Origin: a virus
Direction: 5' to 3' (one strand)
IMG/VR virus record: IMGVR_UViG_3300045922_001168
Span: 1-29,553 of that record
Length of the DNA stretch: 29,553 nt
Part shown: piece after piece, positions 1-29,553 of the stretch
How positions within the stretch are numbered: position 1 is the stretch's first letter
How the letters are laid out: each line of letters starts with the position of its first letter
Program-made: the position numbers and the translations under genes
The notes under the pieces: model-generated
What the model saw: the letters and a program-made list of their open reading frames with translations, nothing else
Told to the model about the DNA's origin: nothing
The model's database searches: none

Positions 1-246
1 TTACTTATTACTGTCTTTTGTCGGGAAAATTTCAGGAACGTAATGAGCAAAATCTGTTGCTTCTCGATCGCATATGAGTACAGATGTCACTGCTGCTGAA
101 CTTCCAGTCTCTACTTTATCACTTTCACAGCAGGCTCCAGCCCAGGCTTTTTCTATAGCCATCTCTTCCGTTGGAGCTTCTACCTCAACCATAAAATATT
201 GGGTAAATGCCAAACCCACACGCCATTTCGGAAATTTTTTAGCCAC
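1..246 (-). CDS. Hypothetical small phage protein, GTG start
   Basis: An 81-residue soluble protein of unknown function and the last gene of the leftward tail-like group at this end of the window. The start is GTG at 246-244, chosen because GGAG lies seven bases upstream and the nearest in-frame ATG alternative is absent; an ATG 12 bases upstream is out of frame and stops after six codons. The protein has a central stretch EVEAPTEEMAIEKAW, a pattern typical of small phage proteins with an alternating strand/helix fold, and two adjacent cysteines near residue 39. The SD lies in the 12-bp gap after the tail gene at 259-960, so the two are probably co-transcribed. I do not recognise a family. 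Confidence 0.6.
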   Translation of the reverse strand: MAKKFPKWRVGLAFTQYFMVEVEAPTEEMAIEKAWAGACCESDKVETGSSAAVTSVLICDREATDFAHYVPEIFPTKDSNK

Positions 247-258
247 CGACGAACTCCA

Positions 259-960
259 TTAAATTACATCCATGTTGCCTTGAGAGATTCCAGTACATGT
301 CCAGTCCGTGTTGGCAGTTGTGCAGAGAAGCTGTATCGCGTCATACTGATTGGTAGAGTCTAAATTCCCACCAACCGAACTATCTCGATTGCCGTAATGA
401 ATAATCTGCCCCACATTACATGAAATGCGCCATCCACCCGCTCCCTTTCCGATAACCCAAACAAGATCTCCAACGGCTGCTGTAGGGGGCAATGTGGCTG
501 TGACCAAAGCTGCATTGTTTAAAATGTACCCGCTATTGACAGTCATGGATTGGGAAGTGCTCGTGATCTCTGTAAAGGGAAAAGCCGAGCCCTGTGCAGG
601 CGCCCATTTGACCCCTTCTGGCTGCGTTGAATCAGCTGTAAGAACCTGAGTGTCTGGACCAGCTGGAAGTCGAACATTTCCTGAGGCCGTTCGCACCAGC
701 AAATCGCCTTTTGTGGTGAGGGGGGAAATATTATCGAAAGCAGAAGAGGCGCTTGCTACATCAGAGAGGTTGTTCGCTACAGCCAATAAGTCTATGACTT
801 TTACACCGGAGTCTTTGATGACTTTTCCTGTGGAGTCGGCATACGTAGCTATGTCATCTGGAACAGCAGAATCCGGACCGATGACGTTTCCTACTCCTCC
901 GCCCCCACTTCCTGATTTATCCAGGTTATTGATAAACGGGTTATATCCATAGATCGTCAT
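259..960 (-). CDS. Tail-fibre-like protein, family A paralogue 1
   Basis: A 233-residue protein probably displayed on the tail tip. A Gly/Ser-rich N-terminal linker (residues 15-25) is followed by a segment with the signature [16 protein letters not shown] near residue 110, and a C-terminal domain containing VGDLVWVIGKGAGGW and LLCTTANTDW. The same signatures occur in the proteins at 20578-21246 and 24124-24789, so these are paralogues. The C-terminal 95 residues match 20578-21246 closely, while the N-terminal part differs, which indicates module exchange. AAGGAG precedes the ATG and lies inside the 9-bp gap after the upstream gene, so the pair is an operon. Assignment to tail fibre is by similarity to the tail cluster and by composition (Gly/Thr/Ser-rich, beta-prone), not by a named family. 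Confidence 0.75.
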   Translation of the reverse strand: MTIYGYNPFINNLDKSGSGGGGVGNVIGPDSAVPDDIATYADSTGKVIKDSGVKVIDLLAVANNLSDVASASSAFDNISPLTTKGDLLVRTASGNVRLPAGPDTQVLTADSTQPEGVKWAPAQGSAFPFTEITSTSQSMTVNSGYILNNAALVTATLPPTAAVGDLVWVIGKGAGGWRISCNVGQIIHYGNRDSSVGGNLDSTNQYDAIQLLCTTANTDWTCTGISQGNMDVI

Positions 961-969
961 ATGCGCTCC

Positions 970-1245
970 TTAAGAAAAATAGGACGCACGACTGGTCCAG
1001 CTGTAGATGAACCCAGCTCCGTTGTCCGGAATCTGAACCCGATTGATGAAATTGTTATTGTCGTAACTCAGCTTTCTAATAAACCAAATCTGACTATCGA
1101 CATTCGCATTAGGTGTAGGGGAGAATCCCACATACATGGGTCTGCCAGCGCTATCGTTATCTAGCCTTTGCTCATAGAAATCGGTAGTGCCAAGAGTGGA
1201 GGCTAAGTTGTTGATTTGATCAAAAACATTGGAAGGTATGGACAT
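970..1245 (-). CDS. Hypothetical tail-associated protein
   Basis: A 91-residue protein, polar and rich in Asn, beginning MSIPSNVFDQINNLAST. It is the first gene of the three-gene leftward group 1245-1; GGAGTG precedes the ATG and the next gene begins 9 bp after its stop. The C-terminal half (SQIWFIRKLSYDNNN...IYSWTSRASYF) looks beta-rich. I do not recognise a family; location directly upstream of a fibre-like gene suggests a structural or adaptor role in the virion. This is inference from context. Confidence 0.6.
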   Translation of the reverse strand: MSIPSNVFDQINNLASTLGTTDFYEQRLDNDSAGRPMYVGFSPTPNANVDSQIWFIRKLSYDNNNFINRVQIPDNGAGFIYSWTSRASYFS

Positions 1246-1299
1246 ATAAAATCACTCCTATTGACCAAAGTCTCAAGGAGCTGTGCCTATCAATCGAGA

Positions 1300-1464
1300 T
1301 TAGACCTGTTTGTGAAAGTCTTCTCGATATTGATTTTTGCAAGCATGACCATCGCCTTTTTGGGATAAGTCTTCTTCCTCAGTCCTTTGTGGACCAGGAG
1401 GATCCTGAATTATTTCAGGTATCACAATCCCTTCGAGTGATTCCTCATGTCTAACATTTGGCAT
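1300..1464 (-). CDS. Hypothetical 54-aa acidic protein
   Basis: A short reading frame in the gap between the fibre group and the SpoVG-like gene. It encodes 54 residues starting MPNVRHEESLEG and containing a hydrophobic patch IVIPEIIQDPPGPQ, then an acidic stretch. The only SD-like sequence is a weak AAGG. It is in the same direction as its neighbours and fills most of an otherwise empty 329-bp interval, which is the main argument for it. No family recognised. Confidence 0.35.
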   Translation of the reverse strand: MPNVRHEESLEGIVIPEIIQDPPGPQRTEEEDLSQKGDGHACKNQYREDFHKQV

Positions 1465-1574
1465 GGCACAGCCTTGTACAGTGGTTGCTTTTTTTAATTT
1501 TGTGCTAGCTAAATTTTAGAGGAGTAATTGGGGAAAGAGGGTAATTTGAGTAGAAGCGTTAATTGAGTCAGTGG

Positions 1575-1997
1575 CTACGCAGTACGTGGGGAAAACGCTT
1601 GAGAACCCCATCCATTTGACGCAGAAGCCGCTTTATGAGCTGAGTGCTGGCTTTGTCCGTTAAATCCATTTGAAGAGCAAAACGAGCCGCCAGAGCTTGA
1701 ATTCGAGGCATCGTCCGACTTCGACTTAAAGTAGGCTTTGACTTTCGATTTAATCAAGTTCTCAACCATTTCCTTTTGGCTTGACGAATCTAGCATAAAC
1801 CATTGGCACCACTGTTCGCCAGTAGGATCTGTTTTTCTATAGCTTGGAATTGCAACAAACATCCCATTTCCATCTTTAGTTCTTTGAACCTTAAAACGTA
1901 ATATGATCTTGCCCAATATTTTTAAGCTAGCAACCCCAAGATACTTTTCATCAGGAGTTTCATCGAAACTTAGGAATTCCACCTGAAAGTCTTCCAT
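1575..1997 (-). CDS. SpoVG-like nucleic-acid-binding protein with Ser/Gly tail
   Basis: A 140-residue protein. Residues 1-95 include KDGNGMFVAIPSYRKTD followed by an aromatic strand and a basic helix (ENLIKSKVKAYF). The GNG-(M/L)-FVA-(I/M)-PS-x-R core is the hallmark of the SpoVG fold, a small DNA/RNA-binding protein. Residues 95-140 are a flexible Ser/Gly/Asn-rich tail, reminiscent in layout of single-stranded DNA-binding proteins, so a role in phage or plasmid DNA replication is plausible. AAAGGA lies about 12 bases upstream of the ATG. It sits downstream of the winged-helix replication-type gene with a 156-bp spacer. The SpoVG resemblance is moderate; the function is inferred. Confidence 0.6.
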   Translation of the reverse strand: MEDFQVEFLSFDETPDEKYLGVASLKILGKIILRFKVQRTKDGNGMFVAIPSYRKTDPTGEQWCQWFMLDSSSQKEMVENLIKSKVKAYFKSKSDDASNSSSGGSFCSSNGFNGQSQHSAHKAASASNGWGSQAFSPRTA

Positions 1998-2153
1998 ATT
2001 CTTGATTTCCTTTTGTTAATCTTTTAATTTGTGCTGATTATGTTGACCCCCGCATACCACGGAGGTTAATGCATAACCAAGCAGCCCATATCCTGTAGAA
2101 ATGAGCGTACTTTTCACAATAAAGACTTTACCCTAATAATACAAAACTATTCT

Positions 2154-3251
2154 TCACATATTTTTATAGAGCTGACTTTTCCGGCATAAGGACTCCAAGG
2201 CTCTGATAAAAGCTTCGCTCGACATCGTTAAGGGTAAGTCATCTTCAGTCACAGTATCTTTGACATATTTCTCATAAATTTTCAGGTCCTCCCATTTATT
2301 CGCCCTTGCAAATTCTTCAGCAAATTCACGATTGTTTTTGCACTCATCGTTTACAACTGCTAACCCATTCATAAGCAGTTTATGCACCCAGCCTCCAAGA
2401 TTTGGGATATGCTGACCAGATGTACGCCGAGCATGCCCAAAATTGACAACCTCTCTTAAGCGATGTGAAGGGTATTTCCTCGACCAATAGTTCAGAGTGT
2501 CATCGTCTGTATTCAGGCCCTGCTCTTTAAGCCAGTTATAGGTCTCCGCCTGCTCCTCTGTAAGTTTAAAGCTTTTCTTTCCTGTAGCTTTAGGACTGGT
2601 CTTGGCAGGAGTTAGCTGAACCAAAGGCGCTTTCATCGACTCTTCTTTTCTTATCGAAAAAGGCAGTGATCCCTCATTGATTTCTTTGCCTTTGATGATA
2701 CTTGTATTTTCATTGTTACTTGATCTTTCATTGTTACTTAGGGGCACATCTTGAGTACGCTCAACTTGAGGGCGCTCAGGCTGAGCATGCACAAAACGAG
2801 AAAGCTCACTATAAGGCTCGTAAACCACTTTTTTTTCCGTTTCAGAAGTTTCCTCCTTAAACTTTGAGTCATCGGGAAAATAAGGCGCGGTGGCTGATTG
2901 AAGAACAACCGCCTTTCTTCTTGTATAAGAGAGGGGAGTCTCAAACATGAGATATTCCATTCTTCCAAGGTGGCGCTTTGTTTTGCCGTCCATGGTGGTC
3001 ATTTTTGAATCTTGATAACGAATGGCATACCCATGTTGAATCAGATCATTGAGAGCTCCGTAAACTACTCTCTTGCCGATCTTCTTTCGATTGCAGAGAT
3101 CTGGAATATTGAATAACCAATCATCCCTGAATGAAAACATGTATGCAAAGAGCCCCGTGGCCGTCAGGTCTAAATTAGTATCTCTAATCGAAGCACTGTT
3201 AATTTGAACGTAGGGATTTTCCCTATCATGGTAAGTACGGATGATCCCCAT
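2154..3251 (-). CDS. Winged-helix replication initiator/organiser-type protein
   Basis: A 365-residue protein. The N-terminal ~110 residues carry the pattern seen in plasmid and phage winged-helix replication proteins: NPYVQI near residue 13, LDLTATGLFAYMFSFRDDW near 28, then KKIGKRVVYGALNDLIQHGY as the HTH. A low-complexity linker (about 150-200, including NNERSSNNEN) joins it to a helical C-terminal domain (about 230-365) with LGGWVHKLL, a layout like phage replisome organisers. AAAGGGA precedes the ATG. The 316-bp upstream leader contains a candidate counter-transcribed structured RNA (3331-3560), which is what one would expect if copy number of this protein is controlled by antisense RNA. 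Exact role is inferred; a transcriptional regulator cannot be excluded. Confidence 0.65.
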   Translation of the reverse strand: MGIIRTYHDRENPYVQINSASIRDTNLDLTATGLFAYMFSFRDDWLFNIPDLCNRKKIGKRVVYGALNDLIQHGYAIRYQDSKMTTMDGKTKRHLGRMEYLMFETPLSYTRRKAVVLQSATAPYFPDDSKFKEETSETEKKVVYEPYSELSRFVHAQPERPQVERTQDVPLSNNERSSNNENTSIIKGKEINEGSLPFSIRKEESMKAPLVQLTPAKTSPKATGKKSFKLTEEQAETYNWLKEQGLNTDDDTLNYWSRKYPSHRLREVVNFGHARRTSGQHIPNLGGWVHKLLMNGLAVVNDECKNNREFAEEFARANKWEDLKIYEKYVKDTVTEDDLPLTMSSEAFIRALESLCRKSQLYKNM

Positions 3252-3497
3252 TGTTTTGCATCCCTTTCAATTTTTAAAAAATTATTATGAAAGGAAAATA
3301 GGCGATCCTATATATAACATTTTACCCTTGGAGGAAAAATCCTCACGAGTGGTACACTTCTGCCGTTCGTTGTGAAAAAAACGACAGAGAAGTAATGTGT
3401 GATATACATCGCTTCTTTTCTTTTCAGTGCTCCCAACCGCTAAATTGGGAGCTTTGAAGGTGTCAGCCTTCAATAATTCTGATCCCATTCACATTGG

Positions 3498-3536
3498 AAA
3501 GCCCTAGGCCGCTAATCCTAGGGCTTTCTCTTTTTT
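3498..3536 (+). terminator. Rho-independent terminator
   Basis: Perfect 11-bp stem, AAAGCCCTAGG at 3498-3508 and its complement at 3517-3527, with an 8-base loop, followed after three bases by six T residues (3531-3536). The T-tract is only present for + strand transcription. Confidence 0.75.
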
Positions 3537-3560
3537 AGAGCTTATTTTGCTCTAGTTTTT
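3536..3560 (+). terminator. Second, weaker terminator-like hairpin
   Basis: TAGAGC and GCTCTA form a 6-bp stem around a 7-base loop, followed by G and a run of six T. It starts at the end of the T-tract of the stronger terminator, so the two act in tandem on the + strand. Confidence 0.4.
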
Positions 3561-3567
3561 TACCCAT

Positions 3568-3834
3568 TTACGGGTATGCATTTTGCCCATTCAAAGGTTC
3601 TAGATACTCTGCTTTTTTGATGGGGAAGTCTGGAAAATAGGGGGTGGCATTTTCGAAAAAAATCGGTCTTCCGGTTTCGGCGATGCGCGTTGCGTTTTCA
3701 TCAGTCGAGAAACTATTGTCGGCAGTTCCTATCTTCACTTGCCATTTAGAGCTAATTTTAAGAAGCACAGCAAAATTGTTTGCGTCACCCTCCCATTGTT
3801 TGAGAGAGTAGACATCTAAAGGTGGCTTAGCCAT
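3568..3834 (-). CDS. Hypothetical 88-aa protein
   Basis: An 88-residue protein beginning MAKPPLDVYSLKQWEGD, without membrane segments or cysteine motifs. GGAGG lies ten bases before the ATG. It follows the HNH/RHH gene (3889) by 54 bp in the same direction and ends eight bases before the tandem + strand terminators. I do not recognise a family; the mix of aromatic and Asp/Asn residues suggests a small globular protein. Confidence 0.5.
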   Translation of the reverse strand: MAKPPLDVYSLKQWEGDANNFAVLLKISSKWQVKIGTADNSFSTDENATRIAETGRPIFFENATPYFPDFPIKKAEYLEPLNGQNAYP

Positions 3835-3888
3835 AAAACTTAATCCTCCGCGTCAAAACTCCAATTTGACGTGCTTATTTTTATATAG

Positions 3889-4632
3889 TTAAGAATTTTC
3901 TGCACTAAACATATCCAATTGTTTTGGAGTTGGTATTGGAGCATGCTTTTCAATTATTTCCCTAATCAATTGTGAAACAGAGTAAATTTCTCCAGTTTGG
4001 TTCGACCTTTCAATCGCCAAACATTTAAAGAAGTCGTGGTAAGCTTTCTCAGCTCTTATACCGACCATGATAGGTTTTTTAAATGCTGATTTTCCCTCTT
4101 TCTTTTTCTTGATAGGAATTCCAGCTAAGAGTTTTTTAAGATACTGATCATCTGGATTAGCTTGATTTGGCATTGGGGCTTCTTGTTCAAGCATTTCTCC
4201 GATCATTCTAGAAACAGAATAAATCTTCCCCGTTTTGTCAGATTTCTCTGCCGCCAGGCGCTTTAAAAACTCATGATAATTTTTCTCGATTCGAATGCAA
4301 ACCATAGTCGGCGATTTATATACCTTTTCCTGCAATCTCTTTGTATTTCCGGGCATTTCAGAACAGGACCTTCTATTATGAGGCCCAACCCATCGACAAT
4401 TGGCTTTACAAAAGTCGCCATCGAGGTCGATTAATTCTATGCCATCACAGTCTTCTGGCCTAGGCCCCATGTCTTCCAGGAACTTCAGAAAAGAGGTTTT
4501 CCACTCCGGACATACCTCCACTCCGCGTCCTCCGTAACTCTTGTAGCTTTTGGCGTTTCTGTTGTAGCATAGCATCTTGATTCTTATCCAAGTCCTGTGT
4601 TCTTTTGACTTGGTCATCTTGTGTGTTGTCAT
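3889..4632 (-). CDS. HNH/AP2-type DNA-binding protein with two RHH-like repeats
   Basis: A 247-residue protein. Residues 10-90 match the pattern of phage HNH/AP2-associated proteins: HRTWIRIKMLCYN, YGGRGVEVCPEW at 33-44, DMGPRPE, and CKANCRWVGPHNRR. The rest contains two copies of one ~49-residue domain (107-155 and 186-234) sharing the pattern M-V-x-IR-x-EK-x-YH-(E/D)-F and IYSVS-(R/Q)-(M/L)-I, resembling a ribbon-helix-helix DNA-binding unit. Fusion of an HNH-type head to tandem RHH-like repeats suggests sequence-specific DNA recognition or nicking. AAGGA lies seven bases before the chosen ATG. The first 173 bp overlap the 3' end of the gene at 4460-5101 in another frame. It is uncertain whether nuclease activity is retained. 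Confidence 0.65.
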   Translation of the reverse strand: MTTHKMTKSKEHRTWIRIKMLCYNRNAKSYKSYGGRGVEVCPEWKTSFLKFLEDMGPRPEDCDGIELIDLDGDFCKANCRWVGPHNRRSCSEMPGNTKRLQEKVYKSPTMVCIRIEKNYHEFLKRLAAEKSDKTGKIYSVSRMIGEMLEQEAPMPNQANPDDQYLKKLLAGIPIKKKKEGKSAFKKPIMVGIRAEKAYHDFFKCLAIERSNQTGEIYSVSQLIREIIEKHAPIPTPKQLDMFSAENS

Positions 4633-5101
4633 TTATCCTTCTTGCCTCTGAATCAAAATTTATCTGATCGTCACCTACAGGAAATTCCCTGAGCACCAGC
4701 CCTCTCAAAAGCTTTGGAACGGAAATTTTCTGCTTGTCCGCTAGTTTCTTAATCACGACGAAGTTTTCGAAAGGCAGAGCAAAAGAAACAATCTGATTCT
4801 CGTCTCTTTTCCAAGCAGTTGGTGTTGACGTCTGGACATTATTATTTGGGTTCAAAGGGTGGTTTTTTTTGTGAACGACTCCGTGACAGGTATTGCAAAG
4901 CCAATAAACATGCAGGGGAGAGCCATAGTCAACATGATGAGCTTCAAGTTTACTGTGTTCTAGAGTGCAAAGATCACAGCAGATGGGTCGTTTAATCAGA
5001 CCATCCTTCAGTGCTGCGGCTACCGCTCTGCGAGCCATGGCCTTTAGCTTGAATTCTAGGCATTCATCATCATTCACTTTGTATTTTGTAGGGGAAGTCA
5101 T
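4460..5101 (-). CDS. HNH-like zinc-binding protein with RHH-like segment
   Basis: A 213-residue protein. Residues 41-77 hold a Cys2 pair (C42, C45), the pair HH at 55-56 within EAHHVDYGSPLHV, then C69, C72, H73 and H77. This is the HNH-like zinc fold found in many phage proteins (pattern HHVDY...WLC..CH). Residues 103-147 (QIVSFALPFENFVVIKKLAD...) look like a ribbon-helix-helix element, as in its neighbour. The last ~57 residues are encoded by DNA that also encodes the start of the next gene and are Gln/Arg-rich, so the C-terminus may be an overprinted extension. Its start lies three bases after the stop of the HTH gene; no clear SD is seen, suggesting translational coupling. Confidence 0.6.
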   Translation of the reverse strand: MTSPTKYKVNDDECLEFKLKAMARRAVAAALKDGLIKRPICCDLCTLEHSKLEAHHVDYGSPLHVYWLCNTCHGVVHKKNHPLNPNNNVQTSTPTAWKRDENQIVSFALPFENFVVIKKLADKQKISVPKLLRGLVLREFPVGDDQINFDSEARRINDNTQDDQVKRTQDLDKNQDAMLQQKRQKLQELRRTRSGGMSGVENLFSEVPGRHGA

Positions 5102-5104
5102 TCG

Positions 5105-5368
5105 TTATACTTCGCAAAATTTCATTGTATTGCTCATGGTAGAGGCCGTTTTTGGTCTATCTTTTCTGGGCCTGCCTTTCGATCTAGAAGCGGGTTTTAC
5201 TTGGCCGCCTGTAATGAAATAGATTTTCTGAGCCGTCTCTTCATCAATCGTTTCATTTTTTTTGACTTTCCAAATGACCTGACGAGTGCACCCGGATAGC
5301 CTCGCCAGTTCGTTGGTTTCCATGTTGTTTTTTCTCAACCAGCGCTCTAATTCCATTGATTGATTCAT
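5105..5368 (-). CDS. Cro/CI-like HTH regulator with AT-hook-like tail
   Basis: An 87-residue protein. Residues 16-53 form a helix-turn-helix of XRE/Cro type: NELARLSGCTRQVIWKVKK followed by IDEETAQKIYFITGG. The C-terminal segment contains KGRPRK, an AT-hook-like minor-groove binding motif. AGGAGG precedes the ATG. A strong sigma70-like promoter (5394-5423) reads into it and a palindromic site (5423-5445) lies just beyond, so autoregulation and control of the divergent rightward operon are likely. The AT-hook-like tail on so small an XRE protein is unusual. Role as immunity or lytic regulator is inferred from position. Confidence 0.7.
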   Translation of the reverse strand: MNQSMELERWLRKNNMETNELARLSGCTRQVIWKVKKNETIDEETAQKIYFITGGQVKPASRSKGRPRKDRPKTASTMSNTMKFCEV

Positions 5369-5873: not shown

Positions 5874-6134
5874 ATGGAAAGACAGAAGATGGACAAAGAC
5901 TTTTTAGAATCTTTAACCCTCGGCCATTCAATGGAAGAGATTATTGGCTTAACTGAGTCGATTAAATACGACTTAGTAAAAGCTAAAAAAGATCAGGAAA
6001 AGTCTGGCAAGTATACAATTTCCTGTCTTCTTCGTGTCCGATTATTACTCCTTGACTTAGAAAAGCTTGGAGGACAATTCCGCAAGCTGTCCATAGCTTA
6101 TGAAAAGGAATTAGAACAAAAAAAGAAAAAATAA
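5874..6134 (+). CDS. Hc1 histone-like N-terminal-domain protein
   Basis: An 86-residue, highly helical basic protein. Its central part, LTESIKYDLVKAKK then RVRLLLLDLEKLGGQFRKLSIAYEKE, follows the pattern of the N-terminal domain of chlamydial histone H1-like protein Hc1: ESI--(D/N)L-KA, RVR, LEK, (Y/F)RK-SI--EK. It differs by a few extra residues before RVR and by lacking the long Lys/Ala-rich C-terminal tail; it ends with a short KKKK run. Hc1 compacts chlamydial chromosomes late in development, so a phage-encoded tail-less form could dimerise with or compete with host Hc1. AAGGA lies seven bases before the ATG. Homology is by pattern only and moderately certain. Confidence 0.6.
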   Translation: MERQKMDKDFLESLTLGHSMEEIIGLTESIKYDLVKAKKDQEKSGKYTISCLLRVRLLLLDLEKLGGQFRKLSIAYEKELEQKKKK

Positions 6135-6135
6135 A

Positions 6136-6162
6136 GAAGAGGGGATGATCTGTCCTCTCTTC
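6136..6162 (-). terminator. Hairpin with T-tract on minus strand
   Basis: GAAGAGGGGA (6136-6145) and TCCTCTCTTC (6153-6162) pair over ten positions, one of them G-T, around a 7-base loop. On the minus strand the stem is followed by a T-rich run (complement of 6121-6135), a classic intrinsic terminator. It could stop antisense transcripts coming from the leftward genes beyond 8863. On the + strand it is simply a hairpin just before the nuclease gene. Confidence 0.4.
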
Positions 6163-6191
6163 TCGACTACATGACCAAAGAGAGACAGATA

Positions 6192-6749: not shown

Positions 6750-6754
6750 GAGAA

Positions 6755-6832
6755 ATGATGAAAAACATGCCTACGAGCCTCCAAAGGTTAATTTTTTTGG
6801 TTTTAAGACACTTTTCTAGTAGGAATAAATAG
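6755..6832 (+). CDS. Possible 25-aa peptide
   Basis: A short frame beginning MMKNMPTSLQRLIFLVLRHF, with AGGAG directly upstream and starting six bases after the nuclease stop. It has an amphipathic/hydrophobic middle. Supported only by its SD and position; could be non-functional leader sequence. Confidence 0.2.
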   Translation: MMKNMPTSLQRLIFLVLRHFSSRNK

Positions 6833-6874: not shown

Positions 6875-6889
6875 AAAAAGGAAAACAAG

Positions 6890-7189: not shown

Positions 7190-7191
7190 AT

Positions 7192-7353: not shown

Positions 7354-7365
7354 GGAGTTAACAAC

Positions 7366-21975: not shown

Positions 21976-24057
21976 TTATTGAGCCTTGATATAAAGGGAT
22001 CGGGGAAACATGTTTGTAGGCTCTTGCGTGATTGCCAACTGATTATCCATCGGCAATTGAAATTGCGTATTAGTTGCGTATTGATAAGCATTCGGGGAGG
22101 TGTAAATGTATCCACCCTGTCCCACGGTTACAAATTTATTGCTAGCGCTTATCACGTCGAAAAGAGCCGAAGCATTTGTGCTTGAGCTGACATTAGGATT
22201 AGCAATCCAATTTGTCCCGTTTGTAGAGGTGTAAACTGTCCCGCCTAAAATATTATTTCCTACAGCCACAAAAAGTCCGTTTGCAAAATTGACCGCTCTA
22301 ATTGCTGTAGGTGGGTTTACAGCTAGTGGGGTTTGTACTGTCCAAGTGATCGCATCGTTCGAAGTCATGAAATTCCCAGCGCTATTTATCGCAACCCAAA
22401 GGCTGTTTCCATAAGTGACCGAATAGTTAAAACTTGAAGTTGGCGTCTGCCTCGCAGTCCAAGTAATCCCGTCTGTTGACGTTCCCATTAAACCGATTCC
22501 AGCAGCATAGACGTAGAGGCTGCCGCTATAGGCGAAATCATAGATGTTATTAGGGGAATTACTTGTGCGAGTCGTCCATGTGATACCATCGGTCGAGGTT
22601 TGAATACCTCCGTTGAAATATCCAATGACAAATTTGTCAGTGTAAATTGCTGCCTGAACAGAATCCGTATCATTTAATCCAGGAAAGTTTTTAGTCCATG
22701 TAATACCATCGGTCGAGGTTAAATGGGTGTTCGTTCCGACAGCATGGAATAGAGCTCCATCCCACACAACGCTATTCAAAGCAGAAGTCGTATTGCTTGT
22801 TCTGACCGTCCAAGTAATCCCGTCCGTTGAAGTTTTTAAAGCGCCAGCGACGCCTACGGCTACAAAGATAGAATTTCCAAAAGTCACCGCATTGATTGTG
22901 CTTACTGTTCCGAAAGTTCTAGCTGTCCAAGTGATCGCGTCTGTTGAGGTCGCAACGTTTCCGCTTGATCCTGCGTAAAGGTAAACGCTTGCTCCGAAAG
23001 TAATGGTGTTAATCGTCGTGGTAGCAGGGGTTGTAAGTGTTCTAGATGTCCATGTAACCGCGTCTGTCGAAGTAGCTAAAAACCCTTGACCTCCGGCAAG
23101 GAAAAGAGCGCTGTTTAAGTAGGCGACTTTATTAATTTGGGTAACAGTTCCAGAGTTTTGAGTTGTCCAAGCAATCCCATTTGTAGATGTTTCCATCACG
23201 CCTAATTGACCTGCTGCCAAAAATTTTGAAGCGCCATAAGTCAGGGTGTAAATAGTCGAGGTAGTTGCGCTAGGTCTTGCCGTCCAAGTAACTCCATCTG
23301 TCGAAGTTGCAATGTTTCCATTCGATCCACCCATGACATATAGACCGCCGCCATATGCTATGGCATTTGCAGACACACCTGAAGGCCACGCGACAATAGG
23401 GGCTGTCCATCTATTACCGTCGGTTGAAGTCGCATTGTTTGCGCCTCCTAGCCATACATATTTTTGACTTGGTGTTGCGTTATAAACGATGTCTCCTGAA
23501 AGTCCTGGAAGCATCGTGTACCAGCTAATCGCATCGGTAGAAGTAAGCATGGTAGCACCGTTGCCACCAACGAAATGAACGCCATTTCCATAGGCTCCAG
23601 CTTGCAATGATTGAGCTGTAGGAGTTTTGCGAGGGGTCCAAGTTACTGCATCCGTAGAGGTGAAAATATTACTTAAGGCGTACGCAACGAAAAGCCCATT
23701 TCCATAATGTAAACTTGAAAAGTTCGCGGTTGTTCCTGAGTTTTGCTGAATCCAATTTTGAGCTGGACCGTTCAGAAGTCCGACTTGAGCAAATAAAGCA
23801 GGAAAAGAAGCCTGAGATAGAATGCTTCCATCGCATTTTTTCCATCCTAGAGCAGTGAAAGTGGAGTCTCCACCGGCATTAGCGAAATATTGTAGGGCGC
23901 CAATCACTCCTCCATTCTGGGCGTCGACGTAATTTTTAGTAGCGGCTTGGGTAGAGGTAGTGGGGTCGCTATTTAATAAAAGATTTCCAGTCATCGTTCC
24001 GCCACTCAAAGGAAGGTGCGGTACCCCTGGATCGTTCACTGAATTGTTCTTTGCCAT
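21976..24057 (-). CDS. Tail fibre / receptor-binding protein with beta-propeller repeats
   Basis: A 693-residue protein, predicted to sit at the tip of the tail. Residues 14-40 have the tail-fibre motif GGTMTGNLLL...AATKNYVD. Residues ~50-100 have DSTFTALGWKKCDGS, as in collar-type proteins. From ~110 on it is built of about 13 repeats of ~40-45 residues with the signature (A/L)-x-TSTDG-x-TWT, e.g. ATSTDGVTWTARPSA, KTSTDGITWTVRTSN; this resembles an Asp-box/BNR-like beta-propeller or solenoid (the Asp-box spacing is one residue short). AGGGGG precedes the ATG. A hairpin lies just upstream (24091-24117). It could bind a polysaccharide or protein on the host envelope. Confidence 0.75.
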   Translation of the reverse strand: MAKNNSVNDPGVPHLPLSGGTMTGNLLLNSDPTTSTQAATKNYVDAQNGGVIGALQYFANAGGDSTFTALGWKKCDGSILSQASFPALFAQVGLLNGPAQNWIQQNSGTTANFSSLHYGNGLFVAYALSNIFTSTDAVTWTPRKTPTAQSLQAGAYGNGVHFVGGNGATMLTSTDAISWYTMLPGLSGDIVYNATPSQKYVWLGGANNATSTDGNRWTAPIVAWPSGVSANAIAYGGGLYVMGGSNGNIATSTDGVTWTARPSATTSTIYTLTYGASKFLAAGQLGVMETSTNGIAWTTQNSGTVTQINKVAYLNSALFLAGGQGFLATSTDAVTWTSRTLTTPATTTINTITFGASVYLYAGSSGNVATSTDAITWTARTFGTVSTINAVTFGNSIFVAVGVAGALKTSTDGITWTVRTSNTTSALNSVVWDGALFHAVGTNTHLTSTDGITWTKNFPGLNDTDSVQAAIYTDKFVIGYFNGGIQTSTDGITWTTRTSNSPNNIYDFAYSGSLYVYAAGIGLMGTSTDGITWTARQTPTSSFNYSVTYGNSLWVAINSAGNFMTSNDAITWTVQTPLAVNPPTAIRAVNFANGLFVAVGNNILGGTVYTSTNGTNWIANPNVSSSTNASALFDVISASNKFVTVGQGGYIYTSPNAYQYATNTQFQLPMDNQLAITQEPTNMFPRSLYIKAQ

Positions 24058-24123: not shown

Positions 24124-24789
24124 TTAAACATAATTTAGGTTGCCCTGAGCAGAAAGAACCTGCCAAGTTGTGTTGGCCACGGTACAAACCATTCTTAAGC
24201 TATCTCCTATCGAGCTCGAGCTGATAGATCCGCTGGCTCCGACAGTAGTCGAAACGCTTCCGAACTGGATGCTTTGACCAGAGGCTTGAGCAATCGTGAA
24301 GTTATGAGCTGCTTGAAGGTTGGTGATTTCCAACATAGTTCCTTGAGCTGAAGTTGCAGGAAGGTTGAATGTCAAATCCGCACCTGTCGCATTTGAGAAG
24401 TAACCATTCCCAGCAACCATTGAAACTGGGCCAGAAGTAGAGTTGATCCAAGAACCAACACCGCCACCATTAGCCGCCCATTTGACGCCAGAAGTTTGGC
24501 TAGAGTCGGCTGTTAAAACGAAATTGTCCGTTCCAACAGATAGAGGGGTGAAAGTGCCTGCGCCTGTTCCTACTAGGATCACGCCTTTTGCAGTATAGTC
24601 CGCGAATCCAATCAGAGTATCTGCAGCTCTGTTTGGGAAGGTGTAGACTCCTGCGCCTGCAAACTGATTGGTGAGTGTGTAATCGCCGCTACCGTTGTAG
24701 GTGACGGTTCTCTTGGTGGTACCTCCACCAATGCTAAAGCCAACCGAAAGGTTGGAGATGTCTAAGTTGACTGACGAATTGTGAGCCAT
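24124..24789 (-). CDS. Tail-fibre-like protein, family A paralogue 3
   Basis: A 221-residue protein. Residues 1-110 are nearly identical to the protein at 20578-21246, and the DNA is also very similar. The C-terminal ~105 residues carry a different module, [18 protein letters not shown] and [20 protein letters not shown], rather than the one shared by 20578 and 259. GAGGA lies before the ATG. Follows the small frame at 24805 by 15 bp in the leftward tail operon. Confidence 0.75.
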
Positions 24790-24804: not shown

Positions 24805-25044
24805 TTAATTTTTAAAGTGATGTTCTTCGCTTTGTTCAGACGATCTGATCCATCGAACAGATCGCTGTTGAATCTTCCGTCTTGGTTGAGTGGGTAGTTG
24901 AGGCAGAAGAGGAATGATGTGCATTGGGTTCAAGACGGCTAAAGATCCAGAAGCGGAAAAAGCATTCGCCTGTGATAAAAATGAGGCATATCTTTTATCC
25001 ATATCCTCAGAAGAATGAGCATCAAGAGACATTGGAGGGGTCAT
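24805..25044 (-). CDS. Small hypothetical tail-operon protein
   Basis: A 79-residue protein, low in motifs: MTPPMSLDAHSSEDMDKRYA, a Pro-rich middle (LLPQLPTQPRRK) and a basic end. It overlaps the 3' end of the gene at 25022 by 23 bp and lacks a clear SD; a start at the second Met is possible. It fills the gap between two tail genes in the correct direction. No family recognised. Confidence 0.4.
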   Translation of the reverse strand: MTPPMSLDAHSSEDMDKRYASFLSQANAFSASGSLAVLNPMHIIPLLPQLPTQPRRKIQQRSVRWIRSSEQSEEHHFKN

Positions 25045-25381
25045 AATGAAGCGCCTTTTTTTGAGGTTTTCTAGAAACTTGTTTGGGAGGGCTTTGAAGA
25101 ATATATTCTTTGCTCTGCTCTATTAATTGGCCTAAGAGCCCCTCAAGCTTTTCGAGACGATTTCTCATCTGCTCAACGGCCTGTTGCAAGGCAAACATCC
25201 GGTTAACTTCAACCTGCTGTTGAATCAGCATCCTTTTTGGAGCGCAATCGCTGATCACTTTAGGTTGTCCCGTTCCTCCTTCTTGCCACCAAGATTCCAC
25301 AAAATTTGGGCACTCTCTTTCGGTAGCGCATAGTTTGCTCTTGACGAAGGGGCAGTTTTCTTTGCATGAAGTACAGTCCAT
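25022..25381 (-). CDS. Cys-rich N-terminus plus coiled-coil tail protein
   Basis: A 119-residue protein. Residues 3-24 carry five cysteines (C3, C6, C10, C18, C24) and a further Cys at 46, arranged as if to bind zinc or an iron-sulphur cluster or form disulphides. Residues 50-95 form a heptad-like coiled coil (QQAVEQMRNRLEKLEGLLGQ). The C-terminus is basic. AAGGAG precedes the ATG. In a tail operon this suggests a trimeric or dimeric adaptor or assembly factor. No named family. Confidence 0.6.
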   Translation of the reverse strand: MDCTSCKENCPFVKSKLCATERECPNFVESWWQEGGTGQPKVISDCAPKRMLIQQQVEVNRMFALQQAVEQMRNRLEKLEGLLGQLIEQSKEYILQSPPKQVSRKPQKKALHYDPSNVS

Positions 25382-25403
25382 TGAGTTCTCCTTTAATTAG
25401 TTT

Positions 25404-26009
25404 TTAGGGTTGTTTTTGGCATAAAATTCCTGTTGCAGCTAAGGGCCTCCAAGCTGACCCGTGATTGTGGGCTTGGCTTCCACCTACGCTAGAGGTTGTC
25501 GCAAAGTTGGTTCCGCCTTGATTCGTGCTTCCCACTTTTTGAGGCGCAAGATTTCCCTTTTGATCCGATTTGTAGAGAGTGATTTGGTGAGTATGAGCTG
25601 GGATTTGATCGGTCGTAAGAGTGTGATCCGCTGTCTGCCACGTCCCTTGAGGCAGCGCGCCTCCAACTGTGTAAGTGGATCCGCCTTTGACTCCTAGAAG
25701 GCAGTCGCCGACGGGGATCGTCACCCATCCGCTAGGGGCCACATCTTGGTAGAACCAAAGCTGGGTGCCTGCGACAAAGCTGACCTGATCGAATCGAATC
25801 TGGTAATTCGTAGAACCTCGTCCTATGACCATCAAATCGTTATTGATGGCAGTGCTTGGGAGGGGATCGAATAGAGAAATATCGAAATTCCTTATCTGGG
25901 CAATCGTTGCTTTTTTGTCAGTAAATCCTTGATGGACAATCGTGAGATCGTTAGCTGGATCTATTACTCCTACAGGATCAAGGTGGCTTATTAGTACAGG
26001 TGTGCTCAT
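25404..26009 (-). CDS. Tail collar/short-fibre protein
   Basis: A 201-residue protein with features of the phage tail collar domain. It has WFYQDVAPSGWVTIPVGDCLLGVKGG, then DHTLTTDQIPAHTH and, near the C-terminus, GSQAHNHGSAWRPLAATGIL. The HTH and HNH pairs are His motifs like those that coordinate metal in short tail fibres such as T4 gp12 and L-shaped fibres. The N-terminal ~70 residues probably anchor it to the baseplate. AAGGAG precedes the ATG, ten bases after the upstream stop. Likely a host receptor-binding or anchoring fibre. Confidence 0.75.
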   Translation of the reverse strand: MSTPVLISHLDPVGVIDPANDLTIVHQGFTDKKATIAQIRNFDISLFDPLPSTAINNDLMVIGRGSTNYQIRFDQVSFVAGTQLWFYQDVAPSGWVTIPVGDCLLGVKGGSTYTVGGALPQGTWQTADHTLTTDQIPAHTHQITLYKSDQKGNLAPQKVGSTNQGGTNFATTSSVGGSQAHNHGSAWRPLAATGILCQKQP

Positions 26010-26018
26010 AGTTTCTCC

Positions 26019-26486
26019 TTAAGACGGAATAATTTTTGATTGTCCCCAAGCGATAATGGTTGCCGGATCCGCAGCTCCCGTAATGGGAACCGAGGTGCCG
26101 GAAATCACTCCTAGGTCTAAGGTTGCTCCTGCTATTTTTGTCAGAGTGACAGTCCCTCCGATATTCGCCCCGATGGCGTAGAGATAATGAGTTGGGCTTG
26201 CTGTATCGACGGCGAATAAGACGCAAAGAGATCCACTGATCGGGAAAATATTGGACCCATCGCCATCCGTAACAATCGCTTGCTCTTCCTGCTGTTTGAA
26301 CCAATTCAGCCATCTCCAGGTGTAGCGAGCGAGCCAGTTGAACCAATTTCGCGGTGGATATTCAAGACGAGCCCATCCTTCCAGCTTTTTTTCAGGAGGC
26401 GGCTCAAGGACGTTGTTTTGTCCAGATATTGGATCTACAACATCATTTTCGGCCCATTCGGGAAGGATAGTTGGTTTCGATACCAT
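26019..26486 (-). CDS. Tail fibre-like N-terminal-type protein
   Basis: A 155-residue protein. Its first half contains EPPPEKKLEGWARLEYPPRN, then WFNWLARYTWRWLNWF, a motif typical of phage tail fibre or baseplate-attached proteins (GW...PP..WFNWL...W). The second half is hydrophobic and Gly/Thr-rich beta. AAGGAG precedes the ATG. Placed between the DUF2612 protein and the collar fibre, it is probably the adaptor that fixes fibres to the baseplate. Confidence 0.7.
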   Translation of the reverse strand: MVSKPTILPEWAENDVVDPISGQNNVLEPPPEKKLEGWARLEYPPRNWFNWLARYTWRWLNWFKQQEEQAIVTDGDGSNIFPISGSLCVLFAVDTASPTHYLYAIGANIGGTVTLTKIAGATLDLGVISGTSVPITGAADPATIIAWGQSKIIPS

Positions 26487-26496: not shown

Positions 26497-27252
26497 TTAA
26501 GGTGGCGGCGGCGTTGAGCCGTCGAACATGATTACTTCTGCTAATTGACCTGCTCCGGTCGTATCAATGGGGGTTCCAAATTCAGCAAAACAACCTCCAA
26601 ACGTTGGATTGACCACATTGCCCGCATTGACTGCCAAAAGATCTGTCGTTTGTACTTGGAGGTTTCTAAAATCGAATGGATCGGCTTCAAATGGAGAAAC
26701 GTCGAGCAGTTCTATAATCGGGTCTCCGCTGAAAACAAATGGGAGAGGAACCCCATAAGTTGCCGTAATGGGGGTGTATTGAACTGCTGCGGGACTTACT
26801 GATTGGATTGCTGAGACCAGCTGTTCTGGAGGGACGGAGAAGGTGACTCCATCGGTGTCCATTTGAAAGGCTGCAGGGTAGTATTCGTGGTAGCGTATCT
26901 TGGTCGCCTTAGTCAAAAACTTAAGAACGGCGATCACTTCCTCAGGCGTTCCGTTAGATTTATTGATGAAGATTTGAAATTTCAGCTTTTCTCTATAATC
27001 TTCATCGCCTTCATCTGGCAGCCTAGCGAGTCCTAATATTTGCCCGAGTCCATCCAGCTGAACTCCGACCGATGTTTCAATCGATCGATCAAATTTCAAT
27101 GTTTGATTGACATCGTCTATCTCTTGAAATTGAGTGACGAAAGCCTGGATCAGTCGTTGGAAGCGGCTATACTCTCCATCAAGCAAACTTTGTTGAAACT
27201 GCCCGGCGAGAAGCGCAATCGCTCTTTGAACGTGGTTCGGTATTAGGGCCAT
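26497..27252 (-). CDS. DUF2612 baseplate/tail protein
   Basis: A 251-residue protein. The pattern FQRLIQAFVTQFQEIDDVNQ, TSVGVQLDGLGQILGLAR and DEDYREKLKFQIFINKSNGT-PEEV matches DUF2612, a family found directly downstream of baseplate J in contractile phages, in the position of tail protein I. It probably forms part of the baseplate wedge. GGAGG precedes the ATG. Gap to the baseplate J gene is 16 bp. Confidence 0.8.
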   Translation of the reverse strand: MALIPNHVQRAIALLAGQFQQSLLDGEYSRFQRLIQAFVTQFQEIDDVNQTLKFDRSIETSVGVQLDGLGQILGLARLPDEGDEDYREKLKFQIFINKSNGTPEEVIAVLKFLTKATKIRYHEYYPAAFQMDTDGVTFSVPPEQLVSAIQSVSPAAVQYTPITATYGVPLPFVFSGDPIIELLDVSPFEADPFDFRNLQVQTTDLLAVNAGNVVNPTFGGCFAEFGTPIDTTGAGQLAEVIMFDGSTPPPP

Positions 27253-27268
27253 TTGGATGCCTCCTTCG

Positions 27269-29254
27269 TCATACCGTCACCGTGATGCGCGATAGATCAA
27301 ATATCGCTATTTCATTCTCTTGGATCGGAATATCCGCCGTTCCATAGAGAGGGCTATCCCCTGGACCGTTAGTGGCTGCAATTTGCATTGCTCCGCTTGC
27401 AATCCCTGGGACAGTGAAGATTTGAGCCAGAACTCGTTGCAAAAGAACATCGACTCCAATCCCTAAGTTATTTCCATAAGTATTGATGGCTTCTGCGACT
27501 AAGTCTTGGCCATTGGGAGGGAAGGTCTCTTCGGAATAGAGAGTCAACGCAACCGTAACCCAAATGTAGATGGGGGTGGGGCGGCTAAAATTGATGACCT
27601 GTTGCTCACCTTGTGAGTCGGTGATGGTAAAGGACGTGTTACCGAAGGTTTGGATGCCCGCCGGTTTGGTAAGCCAGATTTTATTTGCAACGTCAGCATC
27701 AGAACCTCCTTCTACGACTGCTTCGAAACTTTTTGCAAGGCGTCCGCCTTTAAATACAGCTTGCGCTTGGCTTGCGCCACCTGTGACTGAAAATGTTGTA
27801 ATCGCGACCTCTACAGCCTCTTTCATAGAAACGGTGATGGTTCGATTTGCTGTTCCACCGACAACAGCAGAGGCGATTTGAGGTTGGTTAGCGATGTCGA
27901 TTGCTATGGCATTCATAGTATCCAGGTGAGAAGTAGCGAATGTGACAATCGGAAGTGTTTGAATGGTGTTGAAAACGATTGTGATCGTATTGCCGGTGAC
28001 CAAGTCCTGATTCAAAACAATGTCGATTGGCTCTTGAGTCATGGTCCTATTTTCGAAAATGAAAGCAGATGTCACTCCAGGCACTTGTTGCAAGAGGCGA
28101 GCTCTGATGGATTCAACGGTACCGGCTCCTAAAAGACGGATGGAATTATTTCTCCTGATACGAAGTTCAGCATCGGTTTCGATGAATCGACCAGTGACTC
28201 CAGCTTTTGGATTGTTGATCGAGTTCCATCCGGAAATTGGGGTGAGGATCTCCACCAGGGTGTTGATAGGAGCTGCAATAGGGGCAAAATTCTGAGAGAG
28301 GAAGGTAATAGGTGAGGATTGGGAAGAAATGCTGAGATTTGTCCCTACGCTGATTGAAAAAGGCACATCTGGATCATCAGCAACAATGGATAAGCTTCCT
28401 ATCAAATCCGTTGCTAAGACAGTTGAAATGGTCGCATTGATGATGCTGGTTAAATTTTGGGATACTGCATTGATTGTTGGCGTGTCAAAAGTCACTGCAT
28501 AGGTTGGTTGGGATGCTCCCCCAGTTATAACGATCGAATTTACAACCACATTTTTTCCCAAAATGGGAACAATACTGATGATGTTAGGGATTGTGGGTGT
28601 GGCAGATAAGACGTCAGGGTTGGCTGCAATTGCAGCGGCTAAATCGGTGAGAGTTTGATCATTGCTCGCATTGAAAGGGACAGCGGCAAGCGTGGTGCCG
28701 TTCAGGGTGACAACAATCGAGTTTCCTGTGACAAAGCTTCCCGTAAAAGTGATAATCGGAAGAGAGTAAGTGATGGTCTGGTTGTTGATGATGGCTGTGT
28801 AAGATTGGGCTGCAGCTGCGCCGACCACAATGGAAGCAGATGCTGCATTCGACCGTGAAATAAAAGAGTCTGCCTGACAGAAGAAAACGGCTCCTGTATC
28901 CGGAATTCGAGCGAGCGCTCCCTGATTGATGAGGGTTCCTTCTAATCCAGAGCAAACGGCAGTGACATTTGTCTGTTGCGCTGCAAGCCTTGTGATGGCG
29001 TTTAATTGAACCACATTATCAAGGCTAATTCCTTCAGCGGAATTGGGGTACTGGCTGAAGTAGACGTCCTGCATGTTTTCCCATATGTCGGCTTCGACTT
29101 TTGAGAGCACGCCAATGAGCTGTCCGAAAATAGACTGTGGATCGAGGTTAATTTCTCCAAAGGCAGCCAAAAGGAGATTTTGATTCTCTGCATGAATGTC
29201 TGGGAGACGCTTGATTTTGAATCCTTGAGGAGTAAGACCGAATTGTGAGGTCAT
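27269..29254 (-). CDS. Baseplate J-like protein with two inserted repeats
   Basis: A 661-residue baseplate wedge component. The core signatures are FIETDAELRIRRNNSIRLLG and TVESIRARLLQQVPGVTSAF at about 357-400 and PAGIQTFGN at 531-539, as in P2 gpJ. Compared with ordinary members it is long because of two similar ~90-residue modules at about 165-257 and 412-502, each with (V)TGN-(S/T)-I-x-(V/I)-x-(L/F)N, a TL/AIA-type helix, and ITGGASQ or VTGGASQ. Its start overlaps the stop of the preceding gene by four bases (ATGA). Baseplate J with gp25 indicates a contractile tail. Confidence 0.85.
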   Translation of the reverse strand: MTSQFGLTPQGFKIKRLPDIHAENQNLLLAAFGEINLDPQSIFGQLIGVLSKVEADIWENMQDVYFSQYPNSAEGISLDNVVQLNAITRLAAQQTNVTAVCSGLEGTLINQGALARIPDTGAVFFCQADSFISRSNAASASIVVGAAAAQSYTAIINNQTITYSLPIITFTGSFVTGNSIVVTLNGTTLAAVPFNASNDQTLTDLAAAIAANPDVLSATPTIPNIISIVPILGKNVVVNSIVITGGASQPTYAVTFDTPTINAVSQNLTSIINATISTVLATDLIGSLSIVADDPDVPFSISVGTNLSISSQSSPITFLSQNFAPIAAPINTLVEILTPISGWNSINNPKAGVTGRFIETDAELRIRRNNSIRLLGAGTVESIRARLLQQVPGVTSAFIFENRTMTQEPIDIVLNQDLVTGNTITIVFNTIQTLPIVTFATSHLDTMNAIAIDIANQPQIASAVVGGTANRTITVSMKEAVEVAITTFSVTGGASQAQAVFKGGRLAKSFEAVVEGGSDADVANKIWLTKPAGIQTFGNTSFTITDSQGEQQVINFSRPTPIYIWVTVALTLYSEETFPPNGQDLVAEAINTYGNNLGIGVDVLLQRVLAQIFTVPGIASGAMQIAATNGPGDSPLYGTADIPIQENEIAIFDLSRITVTV

Positions 29255-29553
29255 GCTACGAGCTCCTCTGTTAGAGTGATTTCGCCTTGAGTCGTGATCA
29301 CAGAGAAAACAACCGAATAGATTCGACGCTGAGCATCGAAATTGCTGGAAAAGCTGAGAATTTGGTTAACGCCTGGGGTATCTAAAATTTCTTCTTTAAG
29401 AACACTTTCTATGCGAATTTGATTGTGAGCCTTGATGAAGAAATCAGTGTAATAGGGAACGCCTGCTGTGGTGTCTAGAAACCATTCTCCTAGAATAAAG
29501 CGAAGCCTGATCGCTAAATTTTGAGCGATTTGATCACGGCCTTCTACGAGCTG
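29251..29553 (-). CDS. Baseplate W/gp25-like protein, 5' part cut by window edge
   Basis: The last 100 residues of a gene entering from the right edge. It reads RLRFILGEWFLDTTAGVPYY, the family hallmark of gp25/W baseplate wedge proteins, followed by RIESVLKEEILDTPGVNQIL. The stop codon overlaps the baseplate J start (ATGA). The N-terminus is missing because of the window edge, not because of mutation. Confidence 0.8.
   Translation of the reverse strand, partial: QLVEGRDQIAQNLAIRLRFILGEWFLDTTAGVPYYTDFFIKAHNQIRIESVLKEEILDTPGVNQILSFSSNFDAQRRIYSVVFSVITTQGEITLTEELVA

Follow-up and report, generated by a model that had tools for sequence, protein, structure and literature searches.

The closest described counterpart of the DNA analysed here is the plasmid of the isolate C. 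sequanensis CRIB-18, which is closed and was published as a megaplasmid with 7% of its proteins of phage origin (Bertelli et al. 2014, PMC4208316). A group of phage genes that includes a terminase is reported on the plasmids of P. massiliensis and C. sequanensis (Koestlbacher et al. 2021, PMC7846284), and that paper describes chlamydial plasmids as plasmid/phage amalgamations and infers both prophage transfer and the transfer of whole plasmids between families. The window, meaning the whole stretch of 29,553 bases that was analysed, is the entire IMG/VR virus record IMGVR_UViG_3300045922_001168, classed there as linear and with no host assigned; it looks like about one third of a circular element that combines a plasmid with a contractile-tailed phage and is carried by chlamydia-like bacteria. 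As a type of element it is likely a 29.6-kb fragment of a chlamydial phage-plasmid from hosts of the Parachlamydiales type, with relatives of 80-96 kb. To our knowledge the well-studied chlamydial phages are small microviruses; no microvirus family was found among the window proteins scanned, which include tailed-phage proteins instead.

Replicon and baseplate on one molecule

The original prediction, made from the letters of the window, placed contractile-tail genes and a plasmid-type replicon on a single molecule, and both are indeed there: the window itself holds baseplate and fibre genes only, and the head and tail set is found in its relatives. Since the window ends are contig edges, statements about the complete element rest on those relatives. 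Family scans covered the window apart from some small open reading frames, and Rfam and tRNA scans of the window gave no matches, nor did a search of the record for a chaperonin. The replicon and baseplate features are as follows.

10293-11510, plus strand: ten iterons GGTCGNTTYTGTTTAC, probable origin (10 sites at no more than 2 mismatches)
11507-13150, minus strand: 547-residue putative replication initiator (Rep-like), adjoined by the iterons; sole plasmid match C. sequanensis
13158-15500, minus strand: fused DnaG-type primase/DnaB-type helicase (zinc finger, Toprim and DnaB_C in Pfam)
15538-16086, minus strand: putative partner of ParA in centromere binding, with a C-terminus resembling a ribbon-helix-helix (RHH) domain (alignment; role from position); overlaps the ParA gene
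16076-16852, minus strand: ParA partition ATPase (Pfam AAA_31 E=7.8e-54; PHROG ParA E=7e-62)
17004-17201, plus strand: 65-residue RHH/Arc-like gene, divergent from ParA (phrog_582 E=6.9e-5; present in 6 of 6 relatives compared)
26497-27252, minus strand: DUF2612 baseplate protein (PF11041 E=1.5e-6; baseplate PHROGs)
27269-29254, minus strand: baseplate J/gp6-like wedge protein (phrog_6 E=6.8e-53; PF04865 E=3.6e-6)
29251-29553, minus strand: gp25-like baseplate wedge gene, truncated by the contig end (78% to C. sequanensis 72000-72362)

Genes for plasmid replication and partition, which mark a phage-plasmid, are thus present in the window, with putative roles for the initiator and the ParA partner. 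The predicted iterons and primase-helicase were confirmed, the latter by its three domains and the former by 10 copies of GGTCGNTTYTGTTTAC against 0.05 expected (none of 100 shuffles reached 10). Nine other records contain the 547-residue gene, and eight of them (G001, G002, G003, C. sequanensis, G007, G110, G005 and G006) have clusters of five to nine GGTCGNTTYTGTTNAC sites, again at no more than 2 mismatches, on the same side of it; the ninth, G236, has two weak sites only. Stray GGTCGNTTYTGTTNAC sites elsewhere number one each in three records, and when the C. sequanensis plasmid was put through a simple shuffle five times, 0-2 sites turned up.

The 547-residue protein is a putative replication initiator because it is conserved and the iterons adjoin its gene. 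Among 72,556 plasmid records it matches C. sequanensis alone (79% over 93%); in Pfam, NCBIfam and PHROG it has no match to an initiator family, only a weak C-terminal repressor-type helix-turn-helix in PHROG, and its structure model is poor (predicted local distance difference test, pLDDT, 53). The initiator named in the original prediction could be this gene or the one at 2154-3251, which has PHROG matches to DnaD and replication-initiation families. The predicted ParA/RHH partition operon stands firmly as to ParA. For the overlapping gene at 15538-16086 the resemblance of its conserved C-terminal stretch to an RHH domain was judged by eye in the alignment, no convincing family match was found in Pfam, PHROG or NCBIfam, and pairing with ParA is suggested by position. 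The predicted baseplate of gp25, gpJ and DUF2612 with fibres was likewise recovered; gp25 is partial and was recognised through its C. sequanensis homologue at 72000-72362 (phrog_120 E=5.9e-31).

Relatives, host and circular topology

The window is collinear with C. sequanensis 42740-72362, G007:C12 59062-85821 and G110:C3 17577-40465, as well as with fragments; the shared order is broken at 2154-3251, at 9232-9961, at a CoiA-like gene and at places within the fibre locus, all of them sequences that most or all of these relatives lack. The long relatives are the closed 89.5-kb plasmid of C. sequanensis (NZ_LK031773.1; PMC4208316), a 96.5-kb contig from a metagenome-assembled genome (MAG) of the Rhabdochlamydiaceae (G007:C12) and an 80.7-kb contig from a Chlamydiota genome (G110:C3). 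An identical run of 77 bases stands at both ends of G007:C12 (96,481 bp) and occurs at those two places alone. Seventy-seven is a common assembler word length. Joining the two ends restores a 13-bp overlap of the protease gene with its neighbour, as in C. sequanensis, and G007:C12 is probably a second circular element; no exact terminal overlap was found in the other records checked, G110:C3 included. The circular topology that the original prediction had proposed to look for holds for C. sequanensis and, through the end overlap, for G007:C12, and the window itself has no closed ends. The sizes of 80.7, 89.5 and 96.4 kb are compatible with a head-size limit, these being three values of which one is from a contig without demonstrated closure.

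A chlamydial host had been proposed as well, and the nearest matches of ParA, the primase-helicase, the 547-residue protein and baseplate J are all chlamydial. Identity to the C. sequanensis plasmid is 71% for the primase-helicase over its full length, 65.7% for ParA and 74% for baseplate J. Among the plasmid matches listed, the primase-helicase comes next at 28% over 91% (another at 30% over 62%), and ParA falls from C. sequanensis through P. naegleriophila (59.5%) to 41.8%; for baseplate J no phage record and no other plasmid record comes up to 60%, the matches listed being 29-41% and mostly partial. Within the family, baseplate J is 73-96% identical in the six relatives compared and is present too in G236, G238 and G239.

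Searches with the primase-helicase found 4 of 10 pattern-matching stretches in viral contigs to be related (three full-length at 71-92%, one partial at 28%) and 4 of 52 in genome contigs, all four in Chlamydiota MAGs (70-92%). Its profile gave some match in 221 of 232 Chlamydiota genomes, most of which are taken to be ordinary DnaG and DnaB; scores above 1,400 bits were reached in five (G004, G005, G006, G007 and G110), and the next score was 133 bits. Replicon and virion genes occur together in all nine records with the replicon that extend into the virion region, namely the window (baseplate only), G001, G002, G003, G236, G238, G007:C12, G110:C3 and C. sequanensis. G237 and G239 hold the virion side only and the G005 and G006 contigs the replicon side only, all being short pieces, and in G004 a portal is present on a different contig. 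Approached from the other direction, 75 sheath loci were found in viral contigs (including G001, G002 and G003), and 3 of the 37 tested for the primase-helicase carry it: G236, G238 as an edge fragment, and G269, which is probably the C. sequanensis plasmid since its sheath is 100% identical.

Virion genes of the relatives

The window is without capsid, portal, protease, sheath and tape measure because the contig stops there; the same genes come next in the relatives. Past the position of its right edge, relatives that are long enough carry spike, hub, Dit-like protein, tape measure, chaperone, tube, sheath, terminator, neck, capsid, protease, Mu-F and portal. In C. sequanensis the portal (E=4e-93), capsid (E=3e-72) and sheath (phrog_205 E=3e-107) are accompanied by protease, neck, terminator, tape measure, an E217-like hub, gp25 and TerL, and the tube is recognised by position and a structural PHROG. 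The relatives thus have the sheath, gp25, hub, portal and capsid of a contractile, myovirus-type phage, of which the window shows the partial gp25, gp6 and DUF2612; the capsid, terminase and portal that the original prediction had proposed to look for are found, with protease and sheath, in full relatives and not within the window.

TerL is present in C. sequanensis, G007, G237 and G094, and lies away from the portal by about 9 kb in G237, 19 kb in G007:C12 and 26 kb round the circle in C. sequanensis. The capsid family PF09950 was found in 2 of 232 Chlamydiota genomes (G007 and G110) and the terminase family PF17289 in 7 of 232. Identity to the C. sequanensis TerL is 93% in G094, 89% in G007 and 71% in G083, with G225 aligned over 70 residues only; the terminases of G234 and G095 gave no match to it, and G098 stood outside this comparison. 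G094 has a block of TerL, methylase and integrase, and no portal was found in that genome. The G083 TerL (G083:C1 12339-13673) lies on a 143-kb contig, where the only other core match in the first 40 kb is a weak integrase (24%), and no portal of the window's family was found in the G083 genome; we read this locus as a more distant tailed element or a remnant in Chlamydiota. The terminase-family matches in G234, G225 and G095, which are little related or unrelated, may be further tailed prophages in the phylum.

Selection and exchange

Ratios of nonsynonymous to synonymous substitution (dN/dS) were calculated for nine pairs of records, on the aligned parts of as many as 47 core genes. The medians are 0.03-0.06 across the nine pairs, many distant pairs being saturated at synonymous sites and dropped from the medians, and between C. 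sequanensis and G003 all 47 core genes with a computed value are at or below 0.14. The virion genes are under purifying selection. The highest value, 0.43 (C. sequanensis-G002), belongs to orf66511, which is small, lies in the fibre locus and has few synonymous changes; the next highest, 0.33 (window-G001), is that of the ParA partner. In G110 the non-virion gene endonuc45626 has a stop in the aligned stretch and was dropped. Within the C. sequanensis-G003 pair, the synonymous divergence of single genes is as low as 0.03 and as high as 1.84. G002 is G110-like from the portal to orf79947 and C. sequanensis-like in the tail and replicon, a pattern that we read as that of a recombinant, with the elements exchanging genes as mosaics.

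Other features of the window

The left part of the window (1-5368) lies mostly on the minus strand and has HNH-like nucleases and a repressor candidate besides a fibre-like gene and small conserved ones. It is faced by a plus-strand operon at 5874-8866, in which a weakly Hc1-like gene and an exonuclease gene precede DUF1351-like and RecT-like genes.

1-1997, minus strand: conserved module with a fibre-like gene (259-960), the gene at 1575-1997 and small genes of unknown function, in the order of C. sequanensis 42740-44725 (63-84%)
2154-3251, minus strand: DnaD/replication-initiation-like gene (PHROG matches)
3889-5101, minus strand: two HNH-endonuclease-like genes (phrog_3377 E=1.2e-27; phrog_2340 E=8.7e-16)
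5105-5368, minus strand: Cro/CI-type repressor candidate, divergent from the recombination operon (phrog_35 E=1.9e-5; HTH_26 E=4.9e-4, just below the cut-off)
5874-6134, plus strand: weakly Hc1/HctA-like gene, first of the early operon (PF07432 E=0.0013; homologues in relatives)
6171-6749, plus strand: PD-(D/E)XK exonuclease (phrog_298 E=4.9e-23; PF12705 E=2e-5)
7366-7965, plus strand: DUF1351-like recombination-module gene (phrog_10477 E=3.9e-6; PF07083 E=0.0043, below the cut-off)
7976-8866, plus strand: RecT-like annealing protein (phrog_561 E=1.1e-9; Pfam RecT E=0.043)
8863-9081, minus strand: small lipoprotein-like gene with no family match (in five relatives out of six; the remaining one is a fragment that ends short of it)

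The likeness of 1575-1997 to SpoVG reaches only E=0.067 in the Pfam scan. The gene at 2154-3251 has no match in any of the six relatives compared and lies within an extra stretch that is absent at the equivalent place of the C. sequanensis plasmid; it is possibly a second, phage-type initiator acquired by the window's member of the family. The Red/RecET-like module that had been recognised in the letters is present as the exonuclease and the RecT-like gene, the latter matched in PHROG alone. As to the predicted Hc1-like gene, which we take to be 5874-6134, its conservation in the relatives held up and its likeness to Hc1 proved weak, at 18.9 bits with PF07432 (cut-off 23.5) and 19.4 bits with NF051889 (cut-off 100); Hc1 was dropped as a host marker, the likeness being too weak to carry weight. 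The gene at 8863-9081, at the end of the recombination operon, is the sole lysis-like (spanin-like) lead, judged by eye.

Between the partition genes and the baseplate lie an accessory gene and the fibre locus.

17431-18219, minus strand: CoiA-like accessory gene (PF25164 E=2.3e-5, just below the cut-off), found among six relatives only in G001
18339-20576, minus strand: three tandem paralogous genes, probable fibre/receptor-binding proteins (predicted double beta-sandwich)
20578-21246, minus strand: fibre-like gene (57-71% in six relatives; role from position)
21255-22115, minus strand: glycosyltransferase-like gene of the fibre locus (phrog_34859 E=1e-8; phrog_1574 E=3e-30)
21976-24057, minus strand: 693-residue fibre-like gene with repeated DUF6242 stretches (PF19755 E=5e-12) and a sub-threshold Collar domain (PF07484 E=2.5e-4)
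24124-24789, minus strand: fibre-like gene (53-67% to fibre-locus genes of six relatives; role from position)
25022-26486, minus strand: three tail fibre/fibre-associated genes (tail PHROGs, best E=8e-8; sub-threshold Gp10_C)

In the last of these groups the tail PHROG and Gp10_C matches fall in 26019-26486 and 25404-26009, and 25022-25381 is placed by synteny only. The second and third fibre paralogues are 35% and 38% identical to the first, whose model (pLDDT 78.7) has as its top predicted viral fold match an uncharacterised protein (TMq 0.74) and, further among its matches, two cyanophage tail fibre-like proteins (TMq 0.61 and 0.66). A PDB search with the same model is led by peptidylglycine monooxygenase chains at TM-scores of 0.36-0.46; that function was set aside, the modest scores being read as a common beta-sandwich fold. 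The 693-residue gene and the glycosyltransferase-like gene (21255-24057) have no match in the six relatives compared, and we read this receptor-binding region as one that turns over fast.

Cargo differs largely among the relatives. C. sequanensis carries RND efflux, copper, cation-efflux, arsenic and metabolic genes, of which a copper-type block is partly shared with G110:C3 (61-89%) and with G007:C12 (32-60%); much of the remaining cargo has no match among these three elements, while the order of the core is kept. The ten cargo genes of G110 and G007 that were scanned include ABC transporters, hydrolases, a Fic-domain protein, RibD/acetyltransferase and beta-lactamase-family proteins (no resistance function is implied by the last). 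Two AbiE-type pairs are annotated on the C. sequanensis plasmid, at 21620-23079 (confirmed as AbiEi/AbiEii by PADLOC models) and 87994-89450, one of them beside TerL, and G007:C12 and G110:C3 have one such pair each by similarity.

Interpretation

From this gene content a life cycle may be proposed. Between infections the element would persist as a low-copy circle, replicated by the 547-residue protein acting on the iterons together with the primase-helicase and segregated by ParA and its RHH-type partner, while the Cro/CI-type repressor facing the exonuclease/RecT operon would hold the phage programme off. Upon induction a contractile-tailed particle would be assembled from portal, Mu-F, protease, capsid, neck, sheath, tube, tape measure, hub, spike, baseplate and variable fibres; TerL would package the DNA, and the particle would reach another chlamydial cell with exchangeable cargo, for instance the C. 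sequanensis genes for copper, cation efflux and arsenic. Whether the family is in this way an active, transmissible lineage of contractile-tailed phage-plasmids among environmental chlamydia families, moving metal-resistance and other cargo as viral particles, we regard as an evenly balanced question.

Several results weigh against an active chlamydial phage-plasmid. The window has no end repeats in a terminal-overlap check, and the hosts of the MAGs, G007 included, were assigned by binning. No sheath was matched in the G005 and G006 genomes, though the replicon is present, and G110 has no TerL by PF17289 or PF03237 despite its portal and capsid. Of the genes tested, which include part of the cargo, none was recognised as a lysis gene, and no report of a virion, of induction or of transfer of these elements was found in the literature. 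None of 41 chlamydial spacers from clustered regularly interspaced short palindromic repeats (CRISPR) matches, the best among 13 records having 18 matching bases; this null is weak because the spacers are few, Cas1 being found in 8 of 232 Chlamydiota genomes (7 above the cut-off) and a simple repeat finder giving arrays in 4 of the 8 regions. The divergence of G110 from G007 is mixed evidence. With RpoB as the yardstick (80% in amino acids, 73% in nucleotides), identity is higher for the capsid (94%/84%), portal (90%/80%) and tube (92%/79%), much the same for baseplate J (80%/71%), and lower for the primase-helicase (76%/71%), ParA (63%/63%) and tape measure (62%/65%). Spread after the split of the hosts is indicated by the head genes and tube alone, which is partial support.

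The missing TerL of G110 and the lack of a recognised lysis gene speak for a chlamydial plasmid that captured a prophage whose genes are now non-transmissible baggage, in keeping with the mosaic reading of Koestlbacher et al. (2021; PMC7846284), who infer the transfer of a prophage. Against this, the genes of the family have dN/dS no higher than 0.14 in 47 core genes (C. sequanensis-G003) and medians of 0.03-0.06 in nine pairs; gene order is common to the elements, alleles are exchanged between them, and the sole stop seen is in the non-virion endonuc45626 of G110. We consider such baggage unlikely. That the baseplate and fibres, which are all that the window alone shows of a virion, belong to a plasmid-borne contractile injection device (a tailocin or an extracellular contractile injection system, eCIS) and not to a phage is highly improbable in view of the portal, capsid, head protease, Mu-F and neck conserved in the relatives, and of TerL in C. 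sequanensis, G007, G237 and G094. An ordinary tailed phage or prophage of an unrelated bacterium might be mistaken for chlamydial where an IMG/VR record has no host and MAG binning is fallible; with C. sequanensis being an isolate with a closed plasmid (PMC4208316) and the replicon proteins being nearest to Chlamydiota, this is scarcely credible.

Should the phage-plasmid reading be true, infection followed by lysogeny would lie behind what was described in 2021 as interfamily "whole plasmid transfer", and a family of tailed phage-plasmids would be a virus-borne vehicle for gene exchange across chlamydial families, whose members live as obligate intracellular inhabitants of eukaryotic cells. 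It would account for large plasmids with a common core and largely different cargo in different lineages, and might provide a laboratory tool for environmental chlamydiae; the prediction is testable in an existing isolate, C. sequanensis.

Comparison with known systems

The C. sequanensis CRIB-18 plasmid has the gene order of the window, with ParA, the primase-helicase and the 547-residue protein at 66-79% identity and lower values for RecT (53%) and the ParA partner (49%). Its fibre genes 64734/65619 have no window match, and the window has a fibre locus of its own, the CoiA-like gene and the gene at 2154-3251. The plasmid pPNK of Protochlamydia naegleriophila has a ParA at 59.5% to that of the window and likewise a gene overlapping the end of parA; the partner slot there holds a CT583-family gene, and type-F conjugation genes are present, whereas the slot in the window holds the RHH-type gene, with no Pgp6/CT583 match for 15538-16086 in Pfam or NCBIfam.

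Iterons are also a feature of Chlamydia-type plasmids, and a further likeness to these is the C. sequanensis-type integrase, found in G007, G110, G237 and G094. The helicases of three small-genome contigs, which are probably Chlamydiaceae plasmids, group with chromosomal DnaB (100/100) and apart from the phage-plasmid helicases in a tree with a midpoint root and a long-branch warning; on this separation, descent of the Chlamydia-type plasmid from the window's element was set aside.

Among the myophages with this type of capsid, Faecalibacterium phage FP_Brigit has a capsid 42% identical over 97% to that of C. sequanensis and is also among the listed matches of baseplate J; all matches in the 50,697 phage records stay short of 60%, both for the C. 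sequanensis capsid and for baseplate J of the window.

The original prediction held that a tailed phage-plasmid would be unusual in chlamydiae, which was partly anticipated in print by the phage gene group of PMC7846284; that group is given a mosaic reading, and the available part of the paper has no virion inventory, iteron set or phage-plasmid reading. No phage-plasmid reading of these elements was found in the literature searched, which comprised titles and the starts of abstracts, with subscription papers and preprints mostly outside reach. What is added here is a full virion inventory, a family of several members with the window among them, another element that is probably circular, the iterons, the evidence for purifying selection and for exchange as mosaics, and the interpretation of all these as a single phage-plasmid lineage.

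Phage-plasmids, P1-like and others, are an established class of elements. Like the family described here, they join partition and replication genes with a virion set on one circle and carry variable cargo; the chlamydial elements differ from these in the phylum of their hosts, in a contractile module with an E217-like hub, and in a 547-residue replicon protein that, of 72,556 plasmid records, C. sequanensis alone has.

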